Origin: a virus
Virus record (IMG/VR): IMGVR_UViG_3300025789_000068
Coordinates: 1-44,033 of that record
DNA: 44,033 bases
Reading direction: 5' to 3' (one strand)
Both the position numbers and the translations under genes were made by a program. The notes beneath the pieces are model-generated. The model did not search any database, was not told the origin of the DNA, and saw only the letters and a program-made list of their open reading frames with translations. Shown here piece after piece: positions 6,106 to 42,119 of the stretch (position 1 is the stretch's first letter; each line of letters opens with the position of its first letter).

Positions 6106-6106
6106 G

Positions 6107-6949
6107 TTAGACCGCCATTTCTGCTGCGATTGCTGGATGATGTTTATAATTCATCAAACGAATATCTTCTATTTGTGCTGACCATACATCTTTAACATCA
6201 CTTAAATCAAGGTGAGGAAGCGCATATGGACGACGAGCGATTTGTTCTTTGACCTGTTCAATGTGGTTATTATAGATATGAACATCGCCAAATGTTAGGA
6301 TAAGTTCACCTACCGATGCACCAATTGTCTTTGCAATAAGATGAGTTAAGAGCGCATAACTTGCAATGTTGAATGGAACACCGAGAAATATATCGGCACT
6401 GCGCTGATACATCTGGCAACTTAAAACATTATTACGGATATAAAATTGTGCAAACATGTGGCATGGTGGCAGTGCCATCTCTTTTAATTCAGCAGGATTC
6501 CATGCTGTTAAAATATGCCGACGACCAGTGGGATCACGCTGCAACCCATCAATGAGTTCCGCTAACTGGTCAATTTCACCATCATTTACATCACGCCAAT
6601 GACGCCACTGTACACCATATACACGGCCCAAATCGCCATGATAAAGAGAATTTGGAAGCCAATAGCCTGCGTTAGCATTTGCAGTCCAAATGGTTTTCTT
6701 TGCTGCATCTCTTGTGCCATATTGTATCTCTGCCAATCGTCGCTCATCACCGCTTCCCTCAATAAACCATAACAGTTCACTTACCATAGATTTCCATGCT
6801 AATTTTTTGGTTGTTACTGCTGGGAAACCATAAGCAAGATTAAATCTTAACTGCTCGCCAAACATACTTAGCGTACCAACGCCAGTTCTATCTGTGCTTT
6901 GGATACCTTCTAATAAAATTTTTGAACATAGTTGATTATAATTTTGCAT
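6107..6949 (-). CDS. thyA: Thymidylate synthase (ThyA type)
   Basis: This is a full-length 280-residue ThyA. It converts dUMP to dTMP using methylene-tetrahydrofolate. Hallmarks are DRTGVGTLSMFG near the N-terminus, LPPCHMFAQFY with the catalytic C163, the SADIFLGVPFNIASYA folate/nucleotide segment and the GDVHIYNNH motif. The start lies inside the end of the DHFR gene (14-base overlap), so the two folate enzymes are coupled as in the T4 frd-td pair. No intron interrupts it, unlike T4 td. It supplies dTTP for phage DNA synthesis. Confidence 0.97.
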   Translation of the reverse strand: MQNYNQLCSKILLEGIQSTDRTGVGTLSMFGEQLRFNLAYGFPAVTTKKLAWKSMVSELLWFIEGSGDERRLAEIQYGTRDAAKKTIWTANANAGYWLPNSLYHGDLGRVYGVQWRHWRDVNDGEIDQLAELIDGLQRDPTGRRHILTAWNPAELKEMALPPCHMFAQFYIRNNVLSCQMYQRSADIFLGVPFNIASYALLTHLIAKTIGASVGELILTFGDVHIYNNHIEQVKEQIARRPYALPHLDLSDVKDVWSAQIEDIRLMNYKHHPAIAAEMAV

Positions 6950-7436
6950 GTCGTTTCCACACCTGAAATATTTTATCTTTGCCGTAAGTTTCCCAATCCA
7001 TTTGGAAATTATGTAGTAATTCTACCACATCTACACTTACATCGCAATTATAATTATCATCAAATGTGGTCAAATATATCTGTTCAAATAGGTGTTTGGT
7101 GCTGTCAATAAGTTTGGCACCACCTATAATCCATATATCTTTGTTGGGATTGTTTGCTTTTATAACGGAAATACTTTGTTCAATATAATTGCCATGAATG
7201 ATAGTATGAGCATCACGAAAACTATCAACTGATCGATTTGTTACAACGCAACAATGACGATCTGGCAAAGGCTTGGGCATTTTTGGATCAAGCCATGTGT
7301 TGCTGCCCATAACAACAATATGTCCTTTGGTGTTCGAGGAAAACCATTGCATATCTTGCTTGTCATGTGGCCATGGCAGTGAGCCATTTTGTCCAAGCCC
7401 ACCGTTCTTATCTACCGCAAAGATTGCTTTAATCAT
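6936..7436 (-). CDS. folA: Dihydrofolate reductase
   Basis: The 166-residue protein matches the normal DHFR length. It shows GGLGQNGSLPWP followed by an acidic residue (substrate-binding loop and catalytic Asp region), HIVVMGSNTW for NADPH contacts and IWIIGGAKL with the GG turn. DHFR regenerates tetrahydrofolate consumed by thymidylate synthase, which is the next gene and overlaps it. The ATG shares one base with the upstream stop (TAATG). The arrangement points to one co-transcribed nucleotide-metabolism unit. Confidence 0.95.
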   Translation of the reverse strand: MIKAIFAVDKNGGLGQNGSLPWPHDKQDMQWFSSNTKGHIVVMGSNTWLDPKMPKPLPDRHCCVVTNRSVDSFRDAHTIIHGNYIEQSISVIKANNPNKDIWIIGGAKLIDSTKHLFEQIYLTTFDDNYNCDVSVDVVELLHNFQMDWETYGKDKIFQVWKRHAKL

Positions 7437-23075: not shown

Positions 23076-23493
23076 TCTCTTCTCCTTGCTTGTAAAGTTC
23101 TAATAGGGTATGGTATTGTTCATAGGCATCCTTTAGCGTAGGATACTTTTCTGTGAAATATGGATCATCTGCGATAATCATCATCTTATCTGCAATCATC
23201 ATAACAGTTTTATACAATTTATCAAGGTTTATTTCATTGTGATTAGTTCTAATAATTGCATCACCTTTATCTTGTGGTGTAATTTGCAATTCTTTACCCA
23301 TTATTGATACTGATGGACTTCCAGTAGTCCCCCAACTCATAGAACCGCTATTTGTTAGATATCCAGCGCCACCGTTACCACCACCACCGCCACCGCCAGA
23401 AATTGTATAGGTTGTAGATGAACCAATTGCACCAACAGCACCAATTTGGGTATAAACTGTATTAGATTGATTTGGGACGGTTTTGACGGTCAT
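23056..23493 (-). CDS. Glycine-rich late protein with helical C-terminus
   Basis: The 145-residue protein has a polar N-terminus with a run of seven glycines near residues 34-40, a middle SVSIMGKELQITP strand, and a C-terminal helical domain with NLDKLYKTVMMIADKMMII. The C-terminal part resembles an uncharacterised T4-like structural-module protein. It overlaps the DsbA-like gene by 20 bases and the upstream gene by 32. Confidence 0.75.
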   Translation of the reverse strand: MTVKTVPNQSNTVYTQIGAVGAIGSSTTYTISGGGGGGGNGGAGYLTNSGSMSWGTTGSPSVSIMGKELQITPQDKGDAIIRTNHNEINLDKLYKTVMMIADKMMIIADDPYFTEKYPTLKDAYEQYHTLLELYKQGEESDNEKL

Positions 23494-23815
23494 GCTTTAA
23501 TTTAACAGCATATCGGTCTGGAGTCAATTTATATTTTGCAATAAACGCATTATGAAGGTCTTTTGGATCAACTTCAAACTCACGGCATATTTGTTGCATC
23601 ATGCTATCAATGCCATCATAGTCAGTGCGTTCTGCGCCATCAAGTGTGCTTGCAAGACGCTCAACAGCGTTTCCCATATTCATCTTATCACTACCTTGAA
23701 CAACAGTATCATATTTCCATCTGGCCGCAAGCAATCCCCTCGCACCAGCACTTACAGGATGACGACCTTGAATAGTAGTGCTCATTGTTGCTTCGGTAAT
23801 TTCTTTAATACGCAT
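23462..23815 (-). CDS. Small basic protein with capsid-targeting-like N-terminus
   Basis: The 117-residue protein starts MRIKEITEA, where ITE followed by Ala fits a gp21-type prohead-protease site and a T4 capsid-targeting peptide. The remainder has a helical domain and a basic C-terminal tail (KLKHDRQNRPKS). A GGTAAATA element lies 5 bases before the ATG. Packaging in the head is inference. Confidence 0.72.
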   Translation of the reverse strand: MRIKEITEATMSTTIQGRHPVSAGARGLLAARWKYDTVVQGSDKMNMGNAVERLASTLDGAERTDYDGIDSMMQQICREFEVDPKDLHNAFIAKYKLTPDRYAVKLKHDRQNRPKSI

Positions 23816-24743: not shown

Positions 24744-25595
24744 TCACCACTTACGGCAGGACCAATAACGAGCCTTTGTGCGGGGACCTGGATTCTCACA
24801 ATGGTGTCTAGCACGGAAACTTTTACGACGTTTTGGATTTGACTTTTTAATCCTCATATTTGGGTCTCCGAAGTTTACCTTTTTTACATTGCCTGTTTTA
24901 GGGTCTTTAACGAAGACAGCAAATTTTTTAACATCCCCTCTATGGGGTTTATTCAATTGAACCTTACGACCATGATATTCTGCTTCTGCTACGATTGACT
25001 CATACAAGTCATCCATAAAGAAGCGAACTTCCTTGCCATTTTTATTAAGAACGATATCATCATCGTCTTCGGCAATATCCCAACCCATATTGCTTAACAT
25101 CTTTACGGCTTGTGCATGTTTGCCTTCATCGCCATGCCACCACATCTTTGCTAAACGCTTTAATGTTTGTGGATTATCTTGTAGTGAAACTACTTCACCT
25201 TCGTCAATACTTTCACCATAATCTTTGCGATCACCATTTTCATGATAACCTTTGGTGTATGCTTCAATTTCATGAGGATCAGTTAACTTTTGTTGTTCAT
25301 GACCGCCGTGTTCAGTTGGGATTAACTTATGTGGTTTATGTGAACGACCATAATAAGAATCAGCACGACCACGATCATATGGAGTACCATGCTTGTGCTC
25401 AACATCATCAAGGCTTTCTAGTACCTTAAACAATTTTTCATCGCCAAGCAGAGTGATACTATCATCACTCATTTCCATAATCTCGGTATCTACTTCTAGT
25501 ACATTACCAAATTCAAGATAAACACCATCGCCAATCATTGGGCGATCTTCTGCAATGGCAGTAAGTTTTTCAATTATGGAACGCATATCACTCAT
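24744..25595 (-). CDS. Multi-domain late protein with basic Cys C-terminus
   Basis: The 283-residue protein starts MSDMRSIIEKLTAIAED; ATG 25595 is chosen because AGGA lies 8 bases before it. It has three parts: an N-terminal domain (about 18-70), a middle YDRGRADSYYGRSHKPHK and YTKGYHENGDRKDYG region, and a strongly basic C-terminal domain with PKRRKSFRARHHC and KARYWSCRKW. Candidate protease sites are AIAE-D near residue 16, SIDE-G in the middle, and IVAE-A just before the C-terminal domain. The order suggests release of a small DNA-binding-like basic domain in the head. Confidence 0.75.
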   Translation of the reverse strand: MSDMRSIIEKLTAIAEDRPMIGDGVYLEFGNVLEVDTEIMEMSDDSITLLGDEKLFKVLESLDDVEHKHGTPYDRGRADSYYGRSHKPHKLIPTEHGGHEQQKLTDPHEIEAYTKGYHENGDRKDYGESIDEGEVVSLQDNPQTLKRLAKMWWHGDEGKHAQAVKMLSNMGWDIAEDDDDIVLNKNGKEVRFFMDDLYESIVAEAEYHGRKVQLNKPHRGDVKKFAVFVKDPKTGNVKKVNFGDPNMRIKKSNPKRRKSFRARHHCENPGPRTKARYWSCRKW

Positions 25596-25612
25596 GTTAT
25601 AAATCCTATTAT

Positions 25613-25620
25613 TATTTAGA
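25613..25620 (-). promoter_or_regulatory. Late-promoter-like element TCTAAATA
   Basis: The element overlaps the stop codon of the radical SAM gene and lies 17 bases before ATG 25595, giving room for a short leader with AGGA. Confidence 0.5.
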
Positions 25621-26875
25621 CGATTAAGTATGGAAATAGTGAACGCCAATCTGTATTACGGCGATGATCTAACTCATCCAAGTACTTGTGCAAGTATGTT
25701 ATTTTCTTATCATCTTGCTTACAATTTGCTTGTAACATTCGTTGATGTCCTATCATTCTGGTAATTGCTTCTTGGCGTTGTTCTTGATTAGTTTGCATTG
25801 CAGAAAGTATGTTAGTAAAGTCATTTTCCCACATACTATAATCATATATTTGTGGATGTTGATACGGCATACCATCTACGAATTGAAAATAATGACCAAT
25901 ATGTCTATGCACACTATATTTGTTTATTTTTTGTATTAGTTCTGGCATAGTTTTGATAGTCATGGCAGTCATAGTTTGGTTTACATTCAACCATAGCCAA
26001 GATTCATCTTGCAGTGCTGCATATTCAAAGTATTCTTCAAGTTTTTCTAAATTTAAACCACTCCGAACATATTCTTGCTGTGGTCCCCAGCAATCTATGC
26101 TGCATGTTAAATCAAATCGCCCAATATTCTTTGCTGTGGCATAATCTTTAATGCGATTCATATATGAATAAAAATGTTTTTCAGGAGCATTAAAGTTACT
26201 GAATATATTAAGTTGTAGCGTTGGATTTGGTTTACGTTCAATTATATCAAACACACTTTCTATAAGACGATGTTGAATGAAAGTTTCACCACCCAATAAA
26301 TGTAGTCGTCCTAAATTTTGAATATTATCTTCTAACCATGCAAGAAAATCTGTAAAGTATTTTTCAGTAAGAGAATTTGTATTTTGTTTAAAATATTGAC
26401 CACCAATGTTTACTTGTACTGGTCCATGCTGTTTGTTCTCTGCTTCAATTTTACTGCTTAAATTTTCATTACAGTAGATACATGCTAAGTTGCAAGTATT
26501 TTGAGCAAATATCTCTACAATCTTTGGTGTAACATGGGTAGCAAGTGGATTATCTTTTAACTCTGGCGGATTATAACCACCAAGTTCATTGTTATGTTGG
26601 CGATCACTCCACCCACCAGCATCTTCTATATTCTTGCAATACTCACAGCCACGACCTGTTGCTGGCCACTCACCACGCAACATTGCCTCACGGTCTTCTA
26701 TTTTTTGTGGTAAATTATGAAAGTTAGCAAAGTTATTAGGGTCTATGGGATGTGCCTTTACCCGATGGCAACTACTACTCTTGCCTTCATTTAACCAGAT
26801 GGTGCTCCATGTCCATTTACTTTGACATGCAGTTGCTGTCTTGATAGGAAACTTATCATTATAATTATTGGTCAT
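25616..26875 (-). CDS. Radical SAM enzyme, twitch-domain type
   Basis: The 419-residue protein has the radical SAM cluster motif CNLACIYC (C128, C132, C135), followed by a conserved HLLGGETFIQ (GGE-like motif for SAM binding) and IFSNFN and SIDCWG strands. N-terminal C36 in SSCHR and C77/C80 in GRGCEYCKN resemble an extra cluster, as in twitch-domain radical SAM proteins of aquatic phages. The substrate is unknown. It lies within the capsid-related block, so it could modify a peptide or a packaged protein, which is inference. Confidence 0.87.
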   Translation of the reverse strand: MTNNYNDKFPIKTATACQSKWTWSTIWLNEGKSSSCHRVKAHPIDPNNFANFHNLPQKIEDREAMLRGEWPATGRGCEYCKNIEDAGGWSDRQHNNELGGYNPPELKDNPLATHVTPKIVEIFAQNTCNLACIYCNENLSSKIEAENKQHGPVQVNIGGQYFKQNTNSLTEKYFTDFLAWLEDNIQNLGRLHLLGGETFIQHRLIESVFDIIERKPNPTLQLNIFSNFNAPEKHFYSYMNRIKDYATAKNIGRFDLTCSIDCWGPQQEYVRSGLNLEKLEEYFEYAALQDESWLWLNVNQTMTAMTIKTMPELIQKINKYSVHRHIGHYFQFVDGMPYQHPQIYDYSMWENDFTNILSAMQTNQEQRQEAITRMIGHQRMLQANCKQDDKKITYLHKYLDELDHRRNTDWRSLFPYLIV

Positions 26876-26882
26876 ATAGTAG

Positions 26883-27368
26883 TTATGACTTTGCTTTGGT
26901 GCTCACACGAATTGGTGCCTTGCCACTGCCGCCAGTATCTTTACCGCCACGACCTGCTGCGTTCTGTGCTTTGCGCTTACGAGTTACTGCACTTTTCTTT
27001 GCAGATGCACTCATACGACGTGCTTTTGCTGCTGGTACGCACTTGGCATAACCACTTTTACTGCCACTTGTGCCGCATGGTGGATGCTTGCCACCAACTT
27101 TCTTACCAATATTAACCCACTTATCTTTAAACCATTTGTGAAGATTGCCACTTGCTTCTGGTAGCACTAAATTACCACAGTGCATGCAATAATCAACTTG
27201 TTCAAGCAGCACGCTTTCTGTAATAGGGTCACAGCGTAGTTCTGTGCTTTCACTACGTTTCTTTTTATTCTTGACGCAGTTTGGATACTTCTTTCCAAAC
27301 ATTGTTTTCATGCCTTCTTTGTGATAGCCTGCCCAACATGCTTCGCCAAGAACATCTTCCATCTTCAT
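26883..27368 (-). CDS. Basic Cys-containing protein (DUF5872-like) with targeting peptide
   Basis: The 161-residue protein starts MKMEDVLGEACWAGYHKEGM. LGE before Ala is a candidate prohead-protease site. A first small domain has CWAGYHKEGMKTMFGKKYPNC, then VLLEQVDYCMHCGN (LLE before Gln is another candidate), then the DUF5872-type segment HKWFKDKWVNIG, CGTSGSKSGYAKCVPAAKA and a basic RKRKAQNAAG tail. This family occurs in T4-like phages and is rich in Lys and Arg. DNA condensation inside the head is a reasonable but untested role. It overlaps the upstream gene by 4 bases. Confidence 0.82.
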   Translation of the reverse strand: MKMEDVLGEACWAGYHKEGMKTMFGKKYPNCVKNKKKRSESTELRCDPITESVLLEQVDYCMHCGNLVLPEASGNLHKWFKDKWVNIGKKVGGKHPPCGTSGSKSGYAKCVPAAKARRMSASAKKSAVTRKRKAQNAAGRGGKDTGGSGKAPIRVSTKAKS

Positions 27369-28243
27369 TTGGATTTATTTCCCCAGTTCTTGGAACCAGC
27401 CTTGCGACATTTAACTAACGCACCACTTGCATAAGCACTTGGCCATACTTTATAACGGCTCTTTACTTTATAATAGCAAGCATCTTTCTTTTCATCTACT
27501 CGTGATTCTGGTAGCATACGTCCGCCACAGTGTGGGCAACTTTCTTCTACATGATCATGAGCAGCACTGCCAACGATTTCATTATAGTTGTCCATGCAAA
27601 GATAATCATGATTCTTGCTTAGGGCAATCATCTTTTCTGCAACATCATGCAAGTCTAAATCAGTCTTGGCATCTTCACGAGCATATTCCATCATACGAAG
27701 TAGTAGTGGAATATCCATACTGACTGTATCAGTCTTGTCGGCTTCCATTACACTTTCATTGTGCTTTGGCTTCTTGCCACGCTTCTTCATATTGATTGCA
27801 ATGGCTGCTTGTTGTGCAGGACTGCTTGCTTCTTTTACAATGTATTTTGGTATATCTTGTAGTCTTTTTAATTCTGCAATTAATTTAGATATTTCTGCTC
27901 TTATTTTTTTAAATTCTTGATTTGAGTGAACTTTGTTGCTTGTTGCATAGATATCATTGATATTTTTTCTATTATCTGGATCACCAATTGGACGAGATAA
28001 CTCTTTTGAACGTGCTTCTAAATTTCTGTAGCGACTGTTAATATCATGTTGATACTTTAATAATTCAAAATTTGGAATTACTTCTGGACGAGGATCACTA
28101 TCTTTAACTATTATAAATCCTCTGTGTGATCCTAATTGAACTACTTTTGTTCCAGGCATTTTTTGTGATCGATCATACACTAGTTTTATATTTGTAGTTG
28201 GTGGATAATTATTTGCTTCAAGAACAATCTCAGTTGATTTCAT
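27365..28243 (-). CDS. Multi-domain late protein with KVWPSAYASG C-terminal domain
   Basis: The 292-residue protein begins MKSTEIVLEA, a targeting-like peptide with VLE before Ala. Further candidate sites are IVKE-A near residue 138, VME-A near 164 and RVDE-K near 250. A Cys pair CPHCGG and a final basic domain with KVKSRYKVWPSAYASGALVKCRKAG follow; this last motif is common in T4-like phage proteins. The domains look like separate units that could be cut apart. The ATG follows the previous stop by one base. Confidence 0.8.
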   Translation of the reverse strand: MKSTEIVLEANNYPPTTNIKLVYDRSQKMPGTKVVQLGSHRGFIIVKDSDPRPEVIPNFELLKYQHDINSRYRNLEARSKELSRPIGDPDNRKNINDIYATSNKVHSNQEFKKIRAEISKLIAELKRLQDIPKYIVKEASSPAQQAAIAINMKKRGKKPKHNESVMEADKTDTVSMDIPLLLRMMEYAREDAKTDLDLHDVAEKMIALSKNHDYLCMDNYNEIVGSAAHDHVEESCPHCGGRMLPESRVDEKKDACYYKVKSRYKVWPSAYASGALVKCRKAGSKNWGNKSK

Positions 28244-29807: not shown

Positions 29808-30338
29808 TCATGCTAATTCTCCCTGTTTAGCAAAACGCTTAAGTGTTTGCGCAACACGGGCGAAATTCTTGTCTTCATATTTGATACCAATGCCACCAGC
29901 CATCTGCCATTGTGCTATGTTTTTACCATAGTCATCAACAAGAATGTTGGATACGCCACGCTCATTAGTAGCAAACTGTGCTTTATTATGTGTTAATTCA
30001 ATTCCGCTTGGTAGCATATCACTAAGGTGCATGTTGATCCAAGCACGCTTTCCACTTTCGCTGCGACTGTCGCCAGCCAATGGAGTAGAACAAATATAGT
30101 ATTCACCAAATGTTTCTTTGACTGTGCGAACAAGTTCCCTTGCATGAGGAAGTAAGGGAAGGTCTACCCAAAATGTAGGATGGTCTCGCACAAGTTGTAG
30201 TTTGGCTTCTGGGTTATCAATATCTTTATAGTGGTCCTTGCCATCAAGCCTAGCCCACTCACCAAAGAAGTCAGCCAATACGCCATCCATGTCTAGATAA
30301 ACTTTGAACTCTGTTTTGACGACTTCATCTATACGCAT
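29808..30338 (-). CDS. HAD-like 5'-nucleotidase/phosphatase
   Basis: The 176-residue protein shows the HAD motif I D16-M-D18-G-V-L-A-D-F, a Thr/Ser motif II (YYICSTPLAGD) and a late VDDYGKN acid motif, the layout of phage 5'(3')-deoxyribonucleotidases. The start MRIDEVVKTE has IDE before Val, a possible processing site. The frame opens at 30365 with an ATG, but 30338 keeps the phage-like N-terminus and follows AGGATAAATA. Two upstream elements, a TTGACT/TATGAT promoter and GATAAATA, could drive it early and late. Confidence 0.8.
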   Translation of the reverse strand: MRIDEVVKTEFKVYLDMDGVLADFFGEWARLDGKDHYKDIDNPEAKLQLVRDHPTFWVDLPLLPHARELVRTVKETFGEYYICSTPLAGDSRSESGKRAWINMHLSDMLPSGIELTHNKAQFATNERGVSNILVDDYGKNIAQWQMAGGIGIKYEDKNFARVAQTLKRFAKQGELA

Positions 30339-30405: not shown

Positions 30406-33400
30406 TTACGATAGTTGTCTTACGGTCCAACCAGTTCCCAACGAACTACTATAATTAATTGTGAAATAACTCAATGCATTTTGATAGTTATTGAAATGCG
30501 AGTCATCGGTTAACTGCTCGCCATCGCCGCTAAACAGTGCATACGTGCCACTGCCGCCAGGATTTCTAATAGCAGGTGTGTTATTAGTTACAGTAATGTT
30601 AGGATCATCTGCCCAACTTGGGGTTCCAGAAGCAGGTTGATTTACAATAGCCTCGCCTGGTCCCATATAGAACAATTCTTGTTCATCAGTATTTGGCGCA
30701 ATTGTATATAACGCAATACCACGCAAGCCACCAATAGTTCCGCCCCAACGCATTACAGTGCTATATGCTCGTTGGAAATTATTGGCAAATTCTATTGCCT
30801 GTTGCGGAGTAGGCGCACCAAATCTATGAACTTCACCGCCTGTATCGGTATATTTTATAACATATCGTCCTGAACGTTGATTGCCACTTGCGGTGTCTTG
30901 TGCAGTCTGTGTGGCGGTTGGTGGCAGTGATGGAGCACGGTCTTCACCACGAGTTGTAATACGCATAACTTCATCACGCATATAACTCAATGAGTATTCA
31001 TCCAACACTCGCACAGCAAAACGGTCTTGGGGCAAGCCACTTACACCCCAGTATTTTTCTGCTACTGGAATAGCCATCTTTGTTATTTCACTGCTGTATG
31101 TAGTATACAAATCAACGCCAGGTATATAGACCAGTGTTACACTATCTGTTTCATTTTGGTGTGTAGAATAATATTGAACACGAACCATACTATAACCAGG
31201 ATAGCGTAGGTTTATATCACTCAGCGGCATTTGACGAGCGTTAGCAAACTTTACTGCTGCCTCAATCATATCATATGGCGCAGTGCCGTTGATTTTTACT
31301 ACTTGCTCGCCGTCTTCATTTTCCAAGAAACCATCAACTGGACCAGACCCAAGTGGTGCAACAGGCTTACGACGCTCTTGAGCAGTGCGTAATTCTTTTA
31401 CAAGTTGTTCTTTGTCAATAGCGCCAGCAGTATATTTGGCAAATAATTGCATAGTATTATCTTTTTCACTAATGCCACCGCTTACAAACTTATACAGTTT
31501 CTTTTGATATTCTTGACGAGCATCATCTGGATCAGCGGCTGCTCCCATAACACGAACATAGCGCAACATAGTCTTGCGGATTTCTTCATATTGCTCAAAG
31601 TAATTACCGCCAGCACTACGGAACTCAATATAGTTTGGCTTGATGTTTACACTTACATAACGGTCGCCACGAGGAACTAACAGTTTATTGATTTCTTTTT
31701 TGGCAATATCTTCCAATCCACCACGCATCTTATCAAGGATATCAGGAATATTCTTTCTGCCACTTCTGCCACGCACTTCACGCTTGGCTTGGTCAAAACT
31801 ACTCTTTGTCCATCGTGAACCAGCACGACCAAATGCTTTTAACACATACTCATCACCAAGCAACATAATCACTTTAAGATGGTCAATGTTTTCCATTGTT
31901 TGATTAGGGATACTAACACCAATATGGAAACCAGTTGTGCGATTAGTATAATAATCATTGCTCTTTGCCCAACTGAATACATTCTCTAACGCAGCCAAAC
32001 CATCTTCTAGGTTCATTGGAGGTGATACAAGTTCAATACCGCCATCGCCATCATCATTTGGACTATCTAGAGAACTATCTGGTTCAAATATCCAAGTGCT
32101 TTCATCACGGGTAGCACCGTGATACCCGCCACTTGCTCGTGCTTTATAACCAGTTGTGCGTCTAAAATCATCAACAACATCGCCAATGTCTGTTGTTGGT
32201 TCTTCTCTACTGCTGCTAAATGTATAATATGGCCATGACAGCGATTCACGGGTATTGCGATTTACCCAACGCATAAAGTCATACATATCATCAATGCTAT
32301 TGCGACTTATGAATCTACCCCAAGTATATTCTTCGTTTTCTTCCATCCAAGCGGTGCGAACATTATCTTTGGCATCATCAAGTTCTCGCTCACTTGCCTC
32401 GTCCGCAGGAGTATCGCCTAATTCTTCTTGAACTGCGTCTTTGTAATCATCAGTGCCTTCAAATTCATTATCATAGGTTTCATATTGGTATTCACTAAAT
32501 GCTTCATAGAACGATTCTAATGCACTTTCAACATCACTGCGGGTATTGATATCACTACCACCAGTAAAGAAGTTCATAACATCACGCTGACGATCACGAT
32601 AGGATGCGCTGCTTGGAAACTCTTCGTTGGCATCCATATCCTCTTCTTCTTCCTCTTCGCCTTCTTCACCGCCAAGACCAGGAATATACATTTCAGTTTC
32701 AAAACCAACCTTCATACTCTGGGCGAATGGAGTATCGGCAAACTTTTCAAGAGATGTAGGACTCATATTGATTTCGTTTAGGATACTTTCTTCAATACTT
32801 TCGTCTCTATTTGGAACTTCTGCCAATTGCCAAGGTGCTGCCAAATTATGTTCCTCGGCATAACTTACAGCATAACGACGAGCACCAGTTACACTTGCAG
32901 CGTTAAAGGTATGAACAACACGACTTTCACTGTCCAAAATATTATATGTTGTGCCATTTGTAGCAGTAATGTTAGAAGATGTGGCGGTTGCATTTGCTGG
33001 AATAGCATTGCCCGCAATATCATAACCACGATCTATTTCTAACTGTGAATATTGGCGAGGTGGTTGCGCTGCTGTTGGCTGTGAGGTTGGTATACCACGA
33101 ATTAGTTGACCATTTAAGTCCCAGGTACTGTTATTTCCCGGCGATCTAATAGCAATATTAGCCACATCAATATGGTTCTGTTCTGCCCATCTTCTTGCGT
33201 TTTGTGATGCGCCATAAAAACCTGCTGCCTGAAATGATACTATTTCTCGACCATTACTTCTACTTACGATACTATAAAGGGAATCACTTGATGCTGTTGC
33301 TGCTTGTGGCAATTGTAGTGCCTGTGTACCAGCACCAGGTATTGGTGTATTTGTGTCATCACTTGCAAGGGTTAGAAACCAATCGCTATCACGATAACCG

Positions 33401-35304
33401 TATTCACGGGTCATACGAACAGCAATATCTCGTGCTTGCTCATTATCTGGCGCACGAAACTGTGATACAGCCTGTTGATTGTTTGCTAAGCGAATGATAT
33501 ACATTGGTTGCATAGATAATACAGGTCGTTCACCGCCAATTGATAATGGTTGGCGTGTTAGAATATCACCTGCTTGACCATCACGGGTATCTTTTAACGC
33601 AACTAAGTCAAATGAACGACCACTTGCTCGCACTATGCGTGCGGCAATATCATATACATCACTGTAAGTAATTCTTGGAGATACTACAAATTCTTGAATT
33701 ACGCCACCAGTTATACGACTAATAATCTGGAATGTAATACCACCAATTCCATCGTAATCTACATACGGTTCATCATCAGCCGCTAGTTTATCATACGAAT
33801 CACTTGACTGTGGTCGGTCTGCCTTTGCTTTCTTGGCAAAATCACGCTTACTTTGAGCATTTTTAATATAACTTACCAATGCCGTGCGAGGCAGATTGCC
33901 AGTAGCAAATTGTGTAAAATACTTGATAGTATCAGTTTCATCTTTTTTGTCAGCAGTAAGCAGTTTAGCAAATTTCTTTTGATATTCTTTGCGTTCCATT
34001 TCTGGATGAAGTGCGATATTCATAGCATACACGGTGCGTAGTAGCGTATTCACTACTTCTTCGGTGTCCATACTAAGCCAATCACCGCCAGGTGAACGAA
34101 ACTCTACACGATTTTCTTTAGTATTGATAGAGGTAAATTTATTTGTATAACCATTGTGAATAAGTTTTGATGCTACTGTATTCAAGTTCTGACGCATAGC
34201 ATCAACGGCACGATTTGCCTTATCTGGATTTTGTTTAATAAATGATGCTATCTGATCAAACGCACTAGAGGCATATGAGTTACCAAGACGACCAAACTTT
34301 TCAAGAATATATTTGTCGCCTAAAAATAACGCAAGTTTAACATAATCAAGTTTATCTAACTTATAACCTGGTATAGAGATATTCATATGCAAACCAGTTT
34401 TATCATTGGTATAAGCATTGCCATCTTTTGCCCATGCTTTGACCTTATTAATTTGGTCAATCATAGTTGTAATATCAAGTGGCGGTGATACAAACTCTAA
34501 ACCTTCACCACCCTTACCACGAGTAGGTGATAGGCTGCTATCTGGTTCAACCACATACGCATCCATAGGCTTATTGATACCATGATAAGAATTGCTTTTA
34601 ATAGTTTTCATACCAACAGCACGACGGAAATCACCTACATCAACCGTAGAACGAGTTCTGCGATCATATTCATCAGGTTCAGTCCAGTTTGGCCAAGATA
34701 ACCCAAGATTACCATCACTTGCCAAACCACTCATAGCAGTGTTACCATAGGTATCTTCTAAAAATTGTTCAAGATAACTGTCAATATTATCATCATCTTC
34801 AAGATTATCTACCCAAGTTTGGAAATATCGTGATTTAAACTCTTCATATGGATCAATCGTATCAATTTCTTTAAATAACTCTGCTTGATTAGCATAATCA
34901 CGACCATAGCGTTGGTCAATAAAATCTTGAATACGGGCGCTAGTATAATTATCCCATAGCGGACCTTCAATATAATCGCTCCATTCTTCACGCATCAAAT
35001 CAATCGCACGGTTTACATCACGGCGACTATTGTGATCACCATTAAAGAACTGCATAACATCTTGTGCTAGTGCGTTGAAACTTGCAGTAGAAATATTTTC
35101 ATCTGTGTCATAATCAGGTTCGCTATCAAAATCTTCATAAGGATCATAATCATCATCATCTTCTTCTTCAAGATTAGTGACGATAAGTTCAAACTCAAGA
35201 CCTGCTTTTGCATTTGGAATCTTTGCCACAGCAGCACGTAATGCTGTTGGACTCATGTTTACTTCGTTTAGGATTTCTTCAAGGATCAGGTCTTTGTTTT
35301 TCAT
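30406..35304 (-). CDS. Giant head-type polyprotein with two amidoligase-like domains (1632 aa)
   Basis: ATG 35304 is chosen, giving MKNKDLILEEILNEV; a longer frame runs into the upstream gene. LNE before Val-NMSP at residue 14 and LNE before Ile-NMSP at 844 are candidate prohead-protease sites that divide the protein in two units. Each unit has an amidoligase-like domain: unit A with E37-x-E39, EPD (E253, D255), H306 in TGLHMNI and E401-F-R403; unit B with E869-x-E871, EPD (E1074, D1076), H1127 in TGFHIGV and E1227-F-R. Short beta-alpha modules follow each domain (YxI, about 12 residues, FxA, then a helix). The amidoligase_2 family forms amide bonds using ATP; the substrate here is unknown. 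The protein ends in WTVRQLS. Confidence 0.85.
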   Translation of the reverse strand: MKNKDLILEEILNEVNMSPTALRAAVAKIPNAKAGLEFELIVTNLEEEDDDDYDPYEDFDSEPDYDTDENISTASFNALAQDVMQFFNGDHNSRRDVNRAIDLMREEWSDYIEGPLWDNYTSARIQDFIDQRYGRDYANQAELFKEIDTIDPYEEFKSRYFQTWVDNLEDDDNIDSYLEQFLEDTYGNTAMSGLASDGNLGLSWPNWTEPDEYDRRTRSTVDVGDFRRAVGMKTIKSNSYHGINKPMDAYVVEPDSSLSPTRGKGGEGLEFVSPPLDITTMIDQINKVKAWAKDGNAYTNDKTGLHMNISIPGYKLDKLDYVKLALFLGDKYILEKFGRLGNSYASSAFDQIASFIKQNPDKANRAVDAMRQNLNTVASKLIHNGYTNKFTSINTKENRVEFRSPGGDWLSMDTEEVVNTLLRTVYAMNIALHPEMERKEYQKKFAKLLTADKKDETDTIKYFTQFATGNLPRTALVSYIKNAQSKRDFAKKAKADRPQSSDSYDKLAADDEPYVDYDGIGGITFQIISRITGGVIQEFVVSPRITYSDVYDIAARIVRASGRSFDLVALKDTRDGQAGDILTRQPLSIGGERPVLSMQPMYIIRLANNQQAVSQFRAPDNEQARDIAVRMTREYGYRDSDWFLTLASDDTNTPIPGAGTQALQLPQAATASSDSLYSIVSRSNGREIVSFQAAGFYGASQNARRWAEQNHIDVANIAIRSPGNNSTWDLNGQLIRGIPTSQPTAAQPPRQYSQLEIDRGYDIAGNAIPANATATSSNITATNGTTYNILDSESRVVHTFNAASVTGARRYAVSYAEEHNLAAPWQLAEVPNRDESIEESILNEINMSPTSLEKFADTPFAQSMKVGFETEMYIPGLGGEEGEEEEEEDMDANEEFPSSASYRDRQRDVMNFFTGGSDINTRSDVESALESFYEAFSEYQYETYDNEFEGTDDYKDAVQEELGDTPADEASERELDDAKDNVRTAWMEENEEYTWGRFISRNSIDDMYDFMRWVNRNTRESLSWPYYTFSSSREEPTTDIGDVVDDFRRTTGYKARASGGYHGATRDESTWIFEPDSSLDSPNDDGDGGIELVSPPMNLEDGLAALENVFSWAKSNDYYTNRTTGFHIGVSIPNQTMENIDHLKVIMLLGDEYVLKAFGRAGSRWTKSSFDQAKREVRGRSGRKNIPDILDKMRGGLEDIAKKEINKLLVPRGDRYVSVNIKPNYIEFRSAGGNYFEQYEEIRKTMLRYVRVMGAAADPDDARQEYQKKLYKFVSGGISEKDNTMQLFAKYTAGAIDKEQLVKELRTAQERRKPVAPLGSGPVDGFLENEDGEQVVKINGTAPYDMIEAAVKFANARQMPLSDINLRYPGYSMVRVQYYSTHQNETDSVTLVYIPGVDLYTTYSSEITKMAIPVAEKYWGVSGLPQDRFAVRVLDEYSLSYMRDEVMRITTRGEDRAPSLPPTATQTAQDTASGNQRSGRYVIKYTDTGGEVHRFGAPTPQQAIEFANNFQRAYSTVMRWGGTIGGLRGIALYTIAPNTDEQELFYMGPGEAIVNQPASGTPSWADDPNITVTNNTPAIRNPGGSGTYALFSGDGEQLTDDSHFNNYQNALSYFTINYSSSLGTGWTVRQLS

Positions 35305-35320: not shown

Positions 35321-38300
35321 TTATTGTAGCCATGCACCAGAAGCAGGTTGGTCAAGCACGATTGGTGGTATGCTATGATCATCTGGCTCTAAGTATAAAC
35401 TTTTAGCATCAAAGGTGCTGGAAAGACGATTTGCATATGATTTTGCCCAAGCATATGCTTCACTTGGCGTAGCAAAGCGTTTTGGGTCAGAGAGATTAGA
35501 ACCATATGGTGGGTCGCCAAGCCATACTCTATAAATCTTTGTGCTAGCAACAAATGCTGCTCTTGCTGCTGCATCTGCTTTCTCGGTATGACGCTTCTGC
35601 AAGCGCATCTTCAACACATTTTGGTCAATTAAACCACTGGCATACATAGCAAAGTTTGATAGTTGGTCATCATCTCGTGGAATATTTTTAGAAATGATTT
35701 TATAAAGTTTCTTGGCATATTCTTCACGATATGCTTGTGGATCAGCAGCGATTGCCATTACCTGAACATAACGCAGTACAGTATTTTTGATATCGTCAAT
35801 GTGTTCCATAAAGTTTCCACCAGCACTTCGGAATTCAATATAATTAGATTTAAGATGAACAGATACATACTTGTTGCCGCCACGCATCACACGATTAACA
35901 ATTGATTGCGCTGTTCTTGCTAAATCGTTGCGTAATTCTTTGGCATAATCTTCTGGTCGCACATTACTACTGCGTGATTTAAATAGTTTCTGAACCGCAC
36001 CAAGACTGCTCTTGGTATACTCATTGCTGCCACGATCAAATAGGTCTAGCACATATTGATCACCAAGCAGCATTACTACTTTGAGTGGGTCAATTTTTGA
36101 TTGTAGTTCTTCTGGTAGGCTAACACCAACATGGAAACCAGTTGATTCATTGCCATAATATCCGTTTTGACCTGCCCATTGGAAGAACTTATCAAGTGCC
36201 GCCATGCCTTGTTGTAGCGGCATAGGTGGTGATATAAGTTCAATACCGCTATCATCACCACTAATACTGCTATCAGGCTCAAGAATCCAACTAGTGCCAT
36301 CACGCTCTAAACCATGATATCCAGCACCGTATTTTACCTTTGCTCCAATCACTGCCTTCCAACTAACGGCAAGTTCTTTTACGGTTATTGCCGTAGAGTC
36401 TTGTGGTGGGCTTCCTTTTAGAAATGGGTAAAATACATAATCATTTTGTGGTTGTCCCCATCTCATAAACCAATCACTTATGTTTTTAATATTATATCTT
36501 TTAAGATAAGCCTTCCATAACTCTTCATATTCTTGTGGTGTTGAATCTTCTAACATCTTTTCAATAAAGATTTTGCGAGCGTCTGAAACAACAGTATATC
36601 TATCGGAAGCATTTGGGTTATCTATGATTGCTTGTTTTATTTCTTTTTTAGTTAACATCCACGCACTATTCTTGTCAATATAATTTGCAATCCATTTTAA
36701 ATTTTCTGGTTTTACTATTTCAGTTGATACATCTTTATTCTTCGCCACATATGCGATAAAATTTTGATTTATATCACGAAGTTCAACACGAATATTGCCA
36801 ACATCCTCAGAATCAAGCATATCGCTTTTACTTGCCCATGCTGCTACTTGCATAGCCCAATGTTTTTCAGTTGGAAATGGAGCATCACGACTTAAATCCC
36901 AATTGCTTGGGTCTCTGCGAAACTCATATTGTACACGACTTACGCCACCATAGTCTGCATCTTCATCTTCGTAATCCAAACCTGGCACCAGCATTTCTGC
37001 TTCAAAACCAATAGTCATTGCCTGTGCTTGTGGCGTAGCAGCAAACTTCGCCAATGAACTCGGTGACATATTCACTTCATCAAGGTCATCAACATACGCT
37101 AATTTACTATTGCCAGTATCTGGCTGAACCCAACGGTCCCAAGGAAAAACCGCTACCTGACGGTCAGGATAATCATTACCACCGCCTACAGTTCCTATGA
37201 TAGAACCAGCGTGTTCGCCAACAGAACTTGGACCAAGCAACTGCATAAACTTTGTTTTTTCTTGTGGCATGGTAAAATCATGACTTGAAGTTGCATTTCC
37301 TCTATTGCCATCATAAACATCTACGGCAATATGTGGTCTTGATAGTGCAGATGCTGCATAAACTCTATATAATTTTTTAAGACCACTTAATGTTCCTTCT
37401 AGAAAAAATGTATTGGGAAGATTTACAAAACGAACATATCCTTGGGTAAATGCTTCTTCATATCCATCAATGTCGTTATCATAAAGCCACGACAGATGTT
37501 CTTCTGAACCAACATAAACAACTTTACGATTAGGCAATATCCAACCATGTGTTTCATTTGTATCAAGTGCTTCTTCTACACTTTCTTTCTGTAAGGCTTC
37601 TGCATCCCACTTCTTGTGTAGGAACATCAATAAATCTTTTACATTATTGGCACCAATTTTACGCATTGCTGCGATAATTTTAGTAGCCTCTGGATAACCA
37701 CTGCTACCTGGCTTGCGAGCATTGCTTATTTCATTACGCAGCCCAAGATCATCACTAAATTGACCACCAGTATAATATGTTAAACTATAACGCAAGTCAT
37801 TTGCTCGTTTAGATAATTCACTGCGTTTCTTCTTAAACAGCAATTCTAACCACGGCTCTAACATTCGTTTTCCATACTCGGAAACTCTATTATTGCTTGT
37901 TATTTTTTGTCCACGAAGCAAATCTTGCGCACCACTTACTGGAACTGCCTTTTTAATATTTTGTAATCGCCAATCATTTGCATCTGTATAAAGATAAGTT
38001 GGCAATCCACGCTTCTTGGCAGCAATCATCACTGATCGTGCTTCTGGACTTATATAATCACCACGTTCTTTCAGCAGAATATGAACTGCGGTAATAGCAT
38101 CTGCTGGCATAGTTGGCTCACGAGAGAAGATACGATCTTCGCTCTCACTATGACGGTCGCCTCTATAAAATCCTGCCCAATAATCAATTGCCTTACTTGG
38201 ATAACGACGATTAAACCAGTTGCCATCAAGGTTAAACATAACCGCATAATCACCAGTTAGTTCATGATAGCCACCTACTTTACTGCGTGTTGTAGATAGG

Positions 38301-40948
38301 AAATATTCATAGCCTTTTGGAGCATATTGTGCTTCTACATTACCAGTAGAAATGCTTAACTTAAACTCATTGTTTCTAAGAATATCTAATGCTGCTCCAC
38401 CATCTCTGGTATAATGGAACAACACTGGTGATGCTGCTTCGTCAAGTTGTGATTCTGTTTGCAATTCACCTTGGGGCTGTGCTGCTATTTGCGACTGTGG
38501 TCCAAGCAGTTTCATAAACTCTCGTTTTTGTTCAGGTATTGCAAGTGTAATATTTTTATTCTGGTCTGCTATGTCAATATAAACATGTGAACCCGCTGGC
38601 ATTGATAGCACTGTTTGTGCATATATACGATAGTGTTTACGCAATCCATTAAGATTGCCATTCAAACTTAACGACTGCATTGAGCCACGAGTATCGGTAA
38701 TAAATCTTACCCAGTCTTGGGCGAACATTTCCTTGTCCATTGCATCCATCGTAACATCATCATATTTGCTGATTATACCAGCATTGCGTAGATAACCTAT
38801 ATGACCGTCCCATATACTATGTCCATTGCCAAAGTTAACATAACCTACAAGCCCATCATCTTCAATCCAACCGCCATACATGTCATTGCGTAGTAACGCT
38901 TCATCTAAATCTTTACGATGACTACGCTTATAATATGAACACCAACCGTTTGCCGCAATCTTGCCACTAACAGCACTACAACCATGCGGAGGACGCCACA
39001 TAGTGCAGTGATCACAACGCTGACCATTGCGAGGCATTGCCTGATACTTTGCTTCGGCTTTGGTTGATTTTTCTGTGGCTTCATTGACTTTGTTTTTGCT
39101 AATTTCTTCGATGTCACTGTCAGGAACTAATCTTGCGGGTATACTATCTTTTTTAAGTGTTTTATAAGCCCAAAATCTATGATGACCATCTAATACTTGA
39201 TACCCACCTTTGTATTTGCGGACTAAAATAGGTGGTATATTTTCATTCTTCTCTAGACCATCTATAATTTTCGCAACATTTGCTTGGGCTTTTGGTAATT
39301 TCATCTTTGTATCAGGTTCAAACCCAACAAGTTCTTTTGTAGGAATGTTGATAATCGGCAATGAATCAAACCCGCTATCATCTACTTCTGCACCAAAATA
39401 GTCTGGATCAGTATATAGTTTTACTTTACCTTCGTTCGCCAAGTCAGGTGCAACCATGTAACTATTCTTGCTGCCTGGTGGAAACTCAAAACGCTGCGCA
39501 CCCTTCTCACGAGCAGCAGCACGAGCCTTCTTAAACTCCAGTGTCCACCAGCGACGATTGGCATAATCCTTATTGCCCATATAGGCTTTTGGATCAGTAA
39601 TGCGCAACTCTGCCCATTGGTCAGGAGTTAGGTCTTCATCTAATTCATACTTTGGCAAACCATACAGATCAAGGTCTATACCATGTGTAGAACCGTAATA
39701 GGTATCATCTACATTAGGTTTATATGGCTCACGACCACGCTTGACAAGTTTAGGATTATCACCCCAATCGCCACCAATACCTGGTGCTTCGGTGACGATA
39801 CCCATTGCCTTCAACATAGCACGAGCAACTACACGATCTTTTTCTTTTTCTACTTCTGGCAACTGTGCGTAAGTTTGTTGGGCAAGAGCATAACGCTTCT
39901 TTTTCTTATCCATTATAGTCGGGATATCTAACTGCAATTTTCCCATATAATCAGCCACGGCAGTCTTATTCCAACCATCGTGGATAGCGTTGGCAATTGC
40001 TTCTATATCAGTGATACCACTATCAATCATACGCTTTGCAGCAGTGGCACTTTCAATGTTTGCCAACCAACCAAAGTTGTTGCCAGGTGTAGATAACCCA
40101 TAGTGATAGGCATCATCTAGTACTTTATCACTAATGTGTGCAAGTTGATCAACTGTCAGGTTAATACTTTCTGGAATACCTAATTTTTTATTTCGTTTTT
40201 TATTTTTGCCTGTATGTAGATAGGCATGTGGCACTTTTGTATTTTTCTTGCCATATACATCGCCAATAGTAAAAAGTTTACTTGGCTTCTTTCCAATTCC
40301 ATAATTTACATCAGGTGCAGACTCTGACATGCTTTCGTTAAAAGATTCATTTGCAGTCGGGTCTTCTGGTAAATTAAGACCTAAACGCACAGTTTGGAAT
40401 AGCGTTTTACCATCAACAACGAGGTTTTGTGGAACTTGGGTTGCTCTTTCAAAGGCATCTGGATCACCGTCTTTTGCTGCTTGTCTGGCATTTGTTGCAG
40501 AAGTTAAACGAGGACTTTCCATAAATGTTAATGGATTAAAACTATAAAATCCATGCCCCATTTCTTTGTTATTATATTTTTCCAGAACTGGGCGCATGTT
40601 TGCAATATCATCTTCACCAGCAATAAATGTAGCCGAACGGAAACCTTTGTTATAAAGATATGTTGCTGCTTCTAAAAATGTTTTTACTGATGGGTCTTCA
40701 ACAATATGATTTTTTGTTTCTGGATATAGCGCATAAATCCACTTCAATTTTGTTTGATAATCAAGCGGGTTTTTCTTGGAATCTTGACTTTTACTAAAAA
40801 ATAATGCCCAAGCACCATTTTTTGCTGATGTAGATACTGTTGAAATTACACCTTTATGGCCATAATGGGGAGGATTACTTCTCATAAATGCAAAACTTAC
40901 ATGAGGACCAGATGCTTCGGCAAAGTTAGTGCGTGTTGTTAGGGTCAT
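35321..40948 (-). CDS. Giant modular head-type polyprotein with nucleotidyltransferase, ParB-like, ART-like and amidoligase-like domains (1875 aa)
   Basis: Domains in order: FAE-A near residue 11 (targeting-like peptide); HxGH nucleotidyltransferase (H28-x-G-H31 and S150-x-T-x-x-R155); RyR-like helical segment (about 290-385, with LPEVEKEKDR); site IVTE387; ParB-like domain with LDGHHRFWAY (D587 to Y595); site VNE623; a four-Cys domain (C645, C648, C657, C670) ending GWCSYYKR; site LDE683; GWI domain copy 1 (684-837); site LDE837; a domain with LFHYT (H845), FLSTTRSK (S885) and E937, tentatively ADP-ribosyltransferase-like; site VEE1126; GWI domain copy 2; site LDE1291; amidoligase-like domain (E1316, E1318, E1557-P-D1559, E1570, H1606, E1705-F-R1707) and a final beta-alpha module. 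Protease sites fall between the domains. Confidence 0.85.
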   Translation of the reverse strand: MTLTTRTNFAEASGPHVSFAFMRSNPPHYGHKGVISTVSTSAKNGAWALFFSKSQDSKKNPLDYQTKLKWIYALYPETKNHIVEDPSVKTFLEAATYLYNKGFRSATFIAGEDDIANMRPVLEKYNNKEMGHGFYSFNPLTFMESPRLTSATNARQAAKDGDPDAFERATQVPQNLVVDGKTLFQTVRLGLNLPEDPTANESFNESMSESAPDVNYGIGKKPSKLFTIGDVYGKKNTKVPHAYLHTGKNKKRNKKLGIPESINLTVDQLAHISDKVLDDAYHYGLSTPGNNFGWLANIESATAAKRMIDSGITDIEAIANAIHDGWNKTAVADYMGKLQLDIPTIMDKKKKRYALAQQTYAQLPEVEKEKDRVVARAMLKAMGIVTEAPGIGGDWGDNPKLVKRGREPYKPNVDDTYYGSTHGIDLDLYGLPKYELDEDLTPDQWAELRITDPKAYMGNKDYANRRWWTLEFKKARAAAREKGAQRFEFPPGSKNSYMVAPDLANEGKVKLYTDPDYFGAEVDDSGFDSLPIINIPTKELVGFEPDTKMKLPKAQANVAKIIDGLEKNENIPPILVRKYKGGYQVLDGHHRFWAYKTLKKDSIPARLVPDSDIEEISKNKVNEATEKSTKAEAKYQAMPRNGQRCDHCTMWRPPHGCSAVSGKIAANGWCSYYKRSHRKDLDEALLRNDMYGGWIEDDGLVGYVNFGNGHSIWDGHIGYLRNAGIISKYDDVTMDAMDKEMFAQDWVRFITDTRGSMQSLSLNGNLNGLRKHYRIYAQTVLSMPAGSHVYIDIADQNKNITLAIPEQKREFMKLLGPQSQIAAQPQGELQTESQLDEAASPVLFHYTRDGGAALDILRNNEFKLSISTGNVEAQYAPKGYEYFLSTTRSKVGGYHELTGDYAVMFNLDGNWFNRRYPSKAIDYWAGFYRGDRHSESEDRIFSREPTMPADAITAVHILLKERGDYISPEARSVMIAAKKRGLPTYLYTDANDWRLQNIKKAVPVSGAQDLLRGQKITSNNRVSEYGKRMLEPWLELLFKKKRSELSKRANDLRYSLTYYTGGQFSDDLGLRNEISNARKPGSSGYPEATKIIAAMRKIGANNVKDLLMFLHKKWDAEALQKESVEEALDTNETHGWILPNRKVVYVGSEEHLSWLYDNDIDGYEEAFTQGYVRFVNLPNTFFLEGTLSGLKKLYRVYAASALSRPHIAVDVYDGNRGNATSSHDFTMPQEKTKFMQLLGPSSVGEHAGSIIGTVGGGNDYPDRQVAVFPWDRWVQPDTGNSKLAYVDDLDEVNMSPSSLAKFAATPQAQAMTIGFEAEMLVPGLDYEDEDADYGGVSRVQYEFRRDPSNWDLSRDAPFPTEKHWAMQVAAWASKSDMLDSEDVGNIRVELRDINQNFIAYVAKNKDVSTEIVKPENLKWIANYIDKNSAWMLTKKEIKQAIIDNPNASDRYTVVSDARKIFIEKMLEDSTPQEYEELWKAYLKRYNIKNISDWFMRWGQPQNDYVFYPFLKGSPPQDSTAITVKELAVSWKAVIGAKVKYGAGYHGLERDGTSWILEPDSSISGDDSGIELISPPMPLQQGMAALDKFFQWAGQNGYYGNESTGFHVGVSLPEELQSKIDPLKVVMLLGDQYVLDLFDRGSNEYTKSSLGAVQKLFKSRSSNVRPEDYAKELRNDLARTAQSIVNRVMRGGNKYVSVHLKSNYIEFRSAGGNFMEHIDDIKNTVLRYVQVMAIAADPQAYREEYAKKLYKIISKNIPRDDDQLSNFAMYASGLIDQNVLKMRLQKRHTEKADAAARAAFVASTKIYRVWLGDPPYGSNLSDPKRFATPSEAYAWAKSYANRLSSTFDAKSLYLEPDDHSIPPIVLDQPASGAWLQ

Positions 40949-40991: not shown

Positions 40992-42119
40992 TTAATTTGG
41001 TGTCCAGCGGTGTCTCGGAACTAATTTTATATTTGGTTGACCAAATTGAACATAGCCCTCACCGCCAGGAACTCCACGGGTTGATTGCTGTATGTCTGAA
41101 GATTCTTTATCAATTTGGTCAATGATTTGGTTTTTTACATCACGAAGGTTTTCTAATATCGCAAAAGTAGCAATAAAACCTTTTTGATTTTGCGCAATCC
41201 AATCTGTAATTTTCTGTTGCATCGGCGCAGATTGTTTGCTGCTACCTTGCAACCAAGATGCAAATGTATTTGCAAGGTCTGAAACTTTTCCTTGCCTTAC
41301 CATGGTATTATTAAAGTTATATAAAACACCTTTAAATCCTGCCATCTTCATAGCAGCAAGTCGTTCATCATTGAGAAAATTATCAATTGCGGTTTTATTA
41401 ACTGCAACATACTTTTGTAGGTCTTGTAGTTTCTTTGTATCAATCTTAACAGGTTGTTGTGCATATCGTGGACCTAACACAATTAGTCCTTGTGTCTTAT
41501 TAAATGGCGTAAAGTCATCAATAGGTTGTTGTTGGTCATCGCCTATACCAAATTGCGGAAAATATGCATGTCCTACAACGGCTGCAATTGCCTTTGAAAT
41601 GCGTTGCCCAAGTTCAGTAGATGTAGGAACACTATATTGAACATTGTTTGGAGTAAAAGTATATGCGTTATTTTCTAGCGGTGGACGACGCATAAACAAC
41701 AAATCACCATAAACATATCCACGAAAATCTCTAGGAGTTGCTGCCTCAAATAACGCCCATAAACTGGCATATTCATTGGCAAAGCGCATGCGTTCGTCTT
41801 GCTTATCTGGTGCAACATTGCCAGTGTTCATAATAAATTTTACAAGTTCTTGTGGACTATTGCTTTTACCACTGCCGTCTGGCTTTAACCAACCATTATG
41901 TCCAACCATGATGAATTTGCCATCAGGTTCACGCCCCCAATATACTTGCGGTTTGCCGTCCCACTTCCAACGAATGGTTTGTGGATTACTAGCAAGTGTT
42001 GAAAGACGAGAAATGGCAGTATTAGCACCACTGCTGCCATCAATAAGAACAAGGTCTTCTACATGTTGAAATGCACGACCAACTTTTGGGGCTTCGCTAA
42101 TAATCTGATTTATGAACAT
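40992..42119 (-). CDS. Ligase-like nucleotidyltransferase (DUF6267-like) with targeting peptide
   Basis: The 375-residue protein starts MFINQIISEAPKVG; ISE before Ala is a candidate prohead-protease site and the peptide is similar to T4 capsid-targeting sequences. At K52 is KWDGK, matching the KxDG nucleotide-binding motif I of ATP-dependent DNA/RNA ligases, followed by VYWGREPDG and later YVYGDLLF (motif III-like) and AYTFTPNNVQY. These features resemble the uncharacterised phage family DUF6267. No clear ligase OB domain is seen. A ligase or nucleotidyl transfer to an unknown target is possible. ATG 42119 is used in preference to a TTG at 42122. Confidence 0.78.
   Translation of the reverse strand: MFINQIISEAPKVGRAFQHVEDLVLIDGSSGANTAISRLSTLASNPQTIRWKWDGKPQVYWGREPDGKFIMVGHNGWLKPDGSGKSNSPQELVKFIMNTGNVAPDKQDERMRFANEYASLWALFEAATPRDFRGYVYGDLLFMRRPPLENNAYTFTPNNVQYSVPTSTELGQRISKAIAAVVGHAYFPQFGIGDDQQQPIDDFTPFNKTQGLIVLGPRYAQQPVKIDTKKLQDLQKYVAVNKTAIDNFLNDERLAAMKMAGFKGVLYNFNNTMVRQGKVSDLANTFASWLQGSSKQSAPMQQKITDWIAQNQKGFIATFAILENLRDVKNQIIDQIDKESSDIQQSTRGVPGGEGYVQFGQPNIKLVPRHRWTPN

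Follow-up and report, generated by a model that had tools for sequence, protein, structure and literature searches.

The window analysed here is the 44,033-base IMG/VR record IMGVR_UViG_3300025789_000068, taken from a freshwater virus of bacteria. An open reading frame with an ATG start at positions 35321-40948 (minus strand, as are all its modules) encodes a protein of 1875 amino acids. Judged from its homologs, one with 72% identity (L002) and others that are longer or shorter (L003, L005, L010 and L011), the open reading frame is real and under selection. It was annotated from the gene call and the homolog comparison as a putative modular head-cargo polyprotein.

The chain begins with MTLTTRTNFAE/A (slash, predicted cut; residues 1-11, 40916-40948), a putative capsid-targeting-type N-terminal peptide with the first cut site, assigned by motif and homologs and disordered in the structural model. 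A cytidyltransferase / NMN adenylyltransferase-like module follows (residues 12-195, 40364-40915; phrog_3041, 6e-35, with a fold match to NaMN adenylyltransferases). The linker behind it (residues 196-260, 40169-40363) carries several xE sites (195, 205, 209 and 260) and is mostly missing from L002 and L010. Residues 261-387 (39788-40168) were delimited by domain scan, alignment and model as a helical module with a weak RyR match, ending at VTE387/A. Next comes a small APGIGGDW..LDE module (residues 388-438, 39635-39787), absent from L002, where the gap is bounded by two sites. The module at residues 439-623 (39080-39634) ends at VNE623/A and has profile and fold matches to the ParB N-terminal / sulfiredoxin-like fold, spanning residues 509-617. 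A small four-cysteine HiPIP-like module (RCDHC..GC..WC; residues 624-683, 38900-39079) ends at LDE683/A; its match to the HiPIP-type iron-sulfur family is weak (NF041615, 1e-9, residues 624-673) and lies under the curated cut-off.

Two copies of a GWI module, 41% identical to each other, occupy residues 684-837 (38438-38899; absent from L002, L003 and L005) and 1127-1245 (37214-37570; absent from L002 and L003). A search for relatives of this module returned only the near-identical L001. Between the copies lies a module named FHYT here from its start (residues 838-1126, 37571-38437), which belongs to a phage family without a library match, was defined by homologs and is folded in the model. 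Its matches are to phage proteins only. The initial guess of an ADP-ribosyltransferase was dropped, as Pfam, PHROGs and NCBIfam gave the module no match and the PDB, with its solved structures, no similar fold. It is found widely among large uncultured phages (L134-L211). A short GTVGGG piece, placed by alignment and model, extends from VGE1245/H to LDE1291/V (residues 1246-1291, 37076-37213). The chain closes with an amidoligase-like module that starts VNMSP and has a C-terminal extension (residues 1292-1875, 35324-37075); family matches cover residues 1292-1800. Scans with Pfam, PHROGs and NCBIfam revealed no peptidase domain embedded in the protein. It shares one property of polyvalent proteins, a single chain of at least two unrelated domains that are shuffled between relatives, but lacks the embedded peptidase expected where self-processing is proposed.

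The earlier note had listed candidate I/L/V-x-E sites at residues 387, 623, 683, 837, 1126 and 1291 and a further FAE-A near residue 11. Every Glu is correct in the translation, the sites being FAE11/A, VTE387/A, VNE623/A, LDE683/A, LDE837/A, VEE1126/A and LDE1291/V. LDE438/D, VGE1245/H and a cluster at 195-260 had been overlooked. At P3 the sites have V and F as well as I and L. The raw number of [ILV]xE motifs in the protein is at chance level (20 vs 19.4 in shuffled sequences) and was rejected as evidence; it is the positions that carry the argument. The longer motif [ILVF]xE-A occurs 7 times against 1.96 in shuffles, a number reached by 3 of 1000 shuffles. In 9 of 15 cases the edge of a homology block is no more than 10 residues from an [ILVF]xE, compared with 28% for random positions (p=0.01); with a filter on P1' the figures are 8 of 15 and 19% (p=0.003). 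The edges were taken as the ends of BLAST blocks, because global pairwise alignments were full of spurious gaps where the amidoligase part diverges. The window protein and L010 reach significance in the edge test, while several other homologs fall short when taken alone, and as sequence evidence it is considered moderate. The sequences entering the counts are related, so that the trials are not independent and the p-values overstate independence.

The homologs differ from the window protein by whole modules. L002 lacks residues 388-438 and about 684-834, and a short unrelated stretch replaces residues 1126-1243; L003 lacks about 684-831 and 1126-1244 as clean deletions. Entire modules are thus missing between two sites in both. 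Different insertions and module orders are seen in L010, L005 and L011, in chains of up to 2845 amino acids. Gain, loss and swap of modules in the relatives are thus located mostly at the sites. Junctions without the motif also occur (TNE/A in L005 and L113, QSE/H in L011). The edge test and the conserved module borders bear out the view that the sites fall between unlike domains. Protease-type sites that stand between domains and are conserved across relatives, as here, are one of the features required of a polyprotein.

Several modules alternate between fused and stand-alone forms, and this alternation is regarded as stronger sequence evidence than the edge test. The FHYT sample comprised 48 distinct contexts from uncultured phages, one of them a truncated copy that could not be judged. 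All fused contexts (17/17) and all stand-alone ones that could be judged (30/30) have [ILVF]xE directly before the module; an equal-width window elsewhere in the same proteins contains it in 4.4%. The stand-alone form is MRATEFLIE/RATDVL-FHYT and similar, the fused form SQINE/RATDIV-YHYT. Amidoligase units start immediately after [ILV]xE in all 33 distinct starts, whether N-terminal (for example MRLLEIYKNQDITE/ and MKLRDVNPQPPVLVEQQLDE/) or inside a long chain. This count leaves out one pattern match, in the C-terminal half of an L034 protein, which is not a unit start. The NPAQQ peptide module is found alone (MKIKDIILE/A, MRFNEIISE/A, MILGDFFSE/A) and fused (SVEE/A, LLNE/A, SIDE/A). N-terminal copies of module 1, the cytidyltransferase, have [ILVF]xE 4-14 residues before the core in 45/45 cases. 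Fused forms were seen mainly in uncultured phages, and the cultured Atu_ph07 (Agrobacterium) and SCTP-2 (Salicola) share the leaders. Genome-wide enrichment of the N-terminal motif is small in G004 (17/338 open reading frames vs about 2-3% in most inner bins) and borderline across the window (8/16 vs 6/30, p=0.04).

Further small modules were noted among the relatives. The pattern (S/N)PAQQAAIAIxMKKxGKKPK directly follows N-terminal leaders and is also seen behind inner [ILV]xE sites, in the window gene at 27365-28243 and in L005, L031, L034, L064, L151, L200 and L270. A small CWxGYxxxGMK..PNCV module is present at 26883-27368 and in L011, L020, L025, L037, L049 and L031, often immediately after a leader such as MRYKEILE/A; several copies have no site.

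Leaders of the same type are carried by neighbouring genes on the minus strand. The next gene (30406-35304) is a second candidate polyprotein that starts MKNKDLILEEILNE/VNMSP and holds two amidoligase units, each after LNE. Upstream of the giant gene lies a DUF6267 gene with the leader MFINQIISE/A (40992-42119). The others are a deoxyribonucleotidase-like gene (29808-30338, leader MRIDE/V), a gene at 27365-28243 (leader MKSTEIVLE/A, with inner sites VKE/ASSPAQQ, VME/A and VEE/S), a gene at 26883-27368 (MKMEDVLGE/ACWAGY) and a gene at 23462-23815 (MRIKEITE/A). At 24744-25649 a C-terminal AEYHGRKVQLNKP.. module (phrog_7595) stands after VAE/A, and the cytidyltransferase protein of Melnitz closes with a similar stretch. 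Positions 4136-7436 contain sugar aminotransferase, epimerase, thymidylate synthase and dihydrofolate reductase genes, which are ordinary metabolic genes by look only.

To place the sites in structures, AlphaFold models built from 24 and 34 sequences were used. Sites 11, 623, 1126, 1245 and 1291 lie in low-confidence linkers adjoining confidently folded domains, and site 837 is at the edge of a low-confidence stretch. The motifs that do not mark borders (84, 93, 123, 144, 961 and 1184) are in folded parts. There is no model confidence for residues 200-508 and 654-779, the regions of sites 387, 438 and 683. The placement of the first five, and of 837 at a linker edge, is in keeping with the exposed linkers for which the earlier note proposed to look; around 387, 438 and 683 the models are too poor for a verdict.

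A search for a gp21-like protease had also been proposed. No protease gene was found in the 44-kb window itself, and the protease of this exact genome remains unseen. Of 27 contigs with amidoligase relatives, many of them fragments, 11 encode Peptidase_S77, the T4 gp21 family; the positive contigs include G004/L011 and G002/L005, which carry the closest giant homologs. The DHP and SSRG motifs, which we take to hold the catalytic His and Ser, are kept in these proteins. All 11 contigs also encode gp23, and the 9 complete copies show L-[KMA]-E/[NS] where the border of the propeptide is expected. Because of this gp23 site in 9 relatives, and judged by sequence alone, the protease of the clade very likely uses LxE. 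In T4, gp21 cleaves after L/I-x-E, and ten residues at the N-terminus of IPIII are enough for head targeting (PMC9026906).

Phages with and without the protease provide a natural control. In the complete phages SCTP-2 and Atu_ph07, which have Peptidase_S77, FHYT and amidoligase proteins start MNLNE/S and MRWQDISSKKLTE/L. No Peptidase_S77 was found in Dickeya phage JA13 or in Lu11, and their FHYT proteins lack LxE (JA13 start MKPLYHFTQ, Lu11 start MKIQLAVAGSSVLYHL). JA13 (L111, MH460460) has two tandem FHYT paralogs, JA13_138 and JA13_139. Pseudomonas phage Lu11 (L289, JQ768459 156980-169839) has a cluster of about 9 genes with near-identical starts, MKIQLA(V/L/T/I)A, which includes FHYT-type proteins. 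By its sequence, the Lu11 start MKIQLAVA looks like a different, unrelated targeting or cleavage peptide. Leaderless cytidyltransferases were found in P-HM2, Turkey5, Cassandra and HTVC008M, phages that have Peptidase_S77/gp21; not every copy need therefore be cargo.

The leader of T4 IPI is MKTYQEFIAE/A. Homologs of module 1 in cyanophages carry the comparable leaders MKSFLQFLKE/A (S-SCSM1), MKNFSSFLTE/A (S-CREM2), MKKFSAFLKE/A (P-SSM4) and MKLFNQFFKE/A (S-CRM01). MTLTTRTNFAE/A of the giant protein also fits a T4-type N-terminal peptide, with F at P3 and not I/L. Mass spectrometry detected the cytidyltransferases of S-SCSM1 (PMC9602691) and S-CREM2 (PMC10665884) in virions; the authors of both studies caution that such proteins may be carry-over from the lysate. 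Counted by accession order, the amidoligase of Atu_ph07 is listed protein 166, which puts it shortly before the virion-protein cluster of CDS 170-215.

These observations make it highly probable that the 1875-residue protein is a head-targeted cargo polyprotein, cut by a gp21-type prohead protease into about 10-11 pieces that are probably injected; encapsidation, cleavage, injection and function are inferred. The proposal in the earlier note that a gp21-like protease cuts a capsid polyprotein is supported in this respect by sequence, relatives and models, but about 10-11 pieces are likelier than the 6-8 it gave. MTLTTRTNFAE would act as the capsid-targeting sequence that brings the chain into the prohead core of a T4-superfamily phage, where the gp21-type protease would cleave after E at [I/L/V/F]-x-E between modules. 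The products would be the NMN adenylyltransferase-like enzyme, the ParB/sulfiredoxin-like protein, the HiPIP-like peptide, two GWI proteins, FHYT, the amidoligase-like enzyme and small pieces. The released proteins would remain in the head and probably be ejected along with the DNA, for a role early in infection. By fusion, one targeting peptide could load many cargo proteins in equal numbers.

The alternative that survives best, though it is improbable, is that the protein is an intact polyvalent protein, packaged or used as one multidomain chain whose xE-rich segments are linkers. Polyvalent proteins form a known group of long, multidomain phage proteins that are injected, and the virion RNA polymerase of N4 is packaged unprocessed (PMC5512222). 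Linkers need no fixed P3 or P1, yet these are the only positions outside the module that are conserved at the 17 fused FHYT junctions: the entropy is 0.67 bits at P3 (L14, I3) and 0.00 at P1 (E17), against 2.09 at P2, 1.88 at P1' and mostly 2-3 bits in the upstream flank. The leader peptides of stand-alone copies end in the same motif, and the absence of any detected embedded peptidase domain also speaks against this alternative. The same junctions bear on a further, quite unlikely possibility, that genes with capsid-targeting sequences were fused and the leftover L-x-E is a relic that is not cut now. Fusion is the likely origin, as several modules have stand-alone copies with leaders; relics would, however, decay together, and here P2 and the flank are randomised beside a kept P3 and P1, while nearly all internal junctions have lost the part of the leader that serves targeting (MRxxEF). 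That L-x-E is merely part of each module's fold, as a first strand or helix without a protease role, accounts for its constant distance from FHYT and xNMSP but is hardly credible, as the same motif precedes at least 4 unrelated modules, is absent from the FHYT homologs of JA13 and Lu11, where S77 was not found, and has E837 outside the confidently folded part of the model.

A cargo polyprotein cut by the prohead protease would extend known systems. T4 IPI, IPII, IPIII and Alt likewise carry a short N-terminal targeting peptide ending in I/L-x-E on diverse head cargo, and the relatives possess the same system of Peptidase_S77 protease and LxE-type gp23 propeptide site. Unlike the T4 internal proteins, which have one cargo each, the giant protein strings many unrelated modules behind a single leader and has inner sites that separate them. 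It resembles the polyvalent proteins of phages and conjugative elements (Iyer et al. 2017, PMC5512222) in its long multidomain chain, enzymes thought to be injected, ParB-type domains and reshuffling. Those proteins have been described as whole or as cut by a metallopeptidase domain of their own (PMC5512222), whereas here a prohead protease is predicted to act in trans. In the phiKZ-type phages SPN3US and 201phi2-1, many head proteins are cut after Glu by a diverged gp21 relative, with several cuts per protein, and ejection proteins occur as well; the SPN3US cuts remove propeptides or a protease tail, without dividing one chain into a series of cargo proteins (PMC10052503). The cytidyltransferase / NMNAT of cyanophages S-SCSM1 and S-CREM2, a module-1 homolog with the leader MKxFxxFLxE/A and found in virions, is stand-alone and not the head of a polyprotein. 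A literature search, which did not cover subscription journals, found no published description of prohead-protease cargo polyproteins.

If true, a double-stranded DNA phage would here be using a polyprotein strategy, with the capsid-maturation protease cutting in trans. It seems fairly likely, with less assurance than for the protein itself, that cargo polyproteins serve T4-superfamily phages in lakes and oceans as a general means of loading, in which modules shuttle between stand-alone genes that have a targeting leader and fused forms that keep just the protease site, and a chain of up to 2,845 residues yields an injected set in fixed ratio. A leader or inner L/I/V-x-E before a module would then serve as a sequence rule that predicts head cargo in uncultured phages and reaches families of unknown function such as the FHYT module. 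This suggests that NAD-related enzymes, amidoligases and others may be delivered with the DNA.
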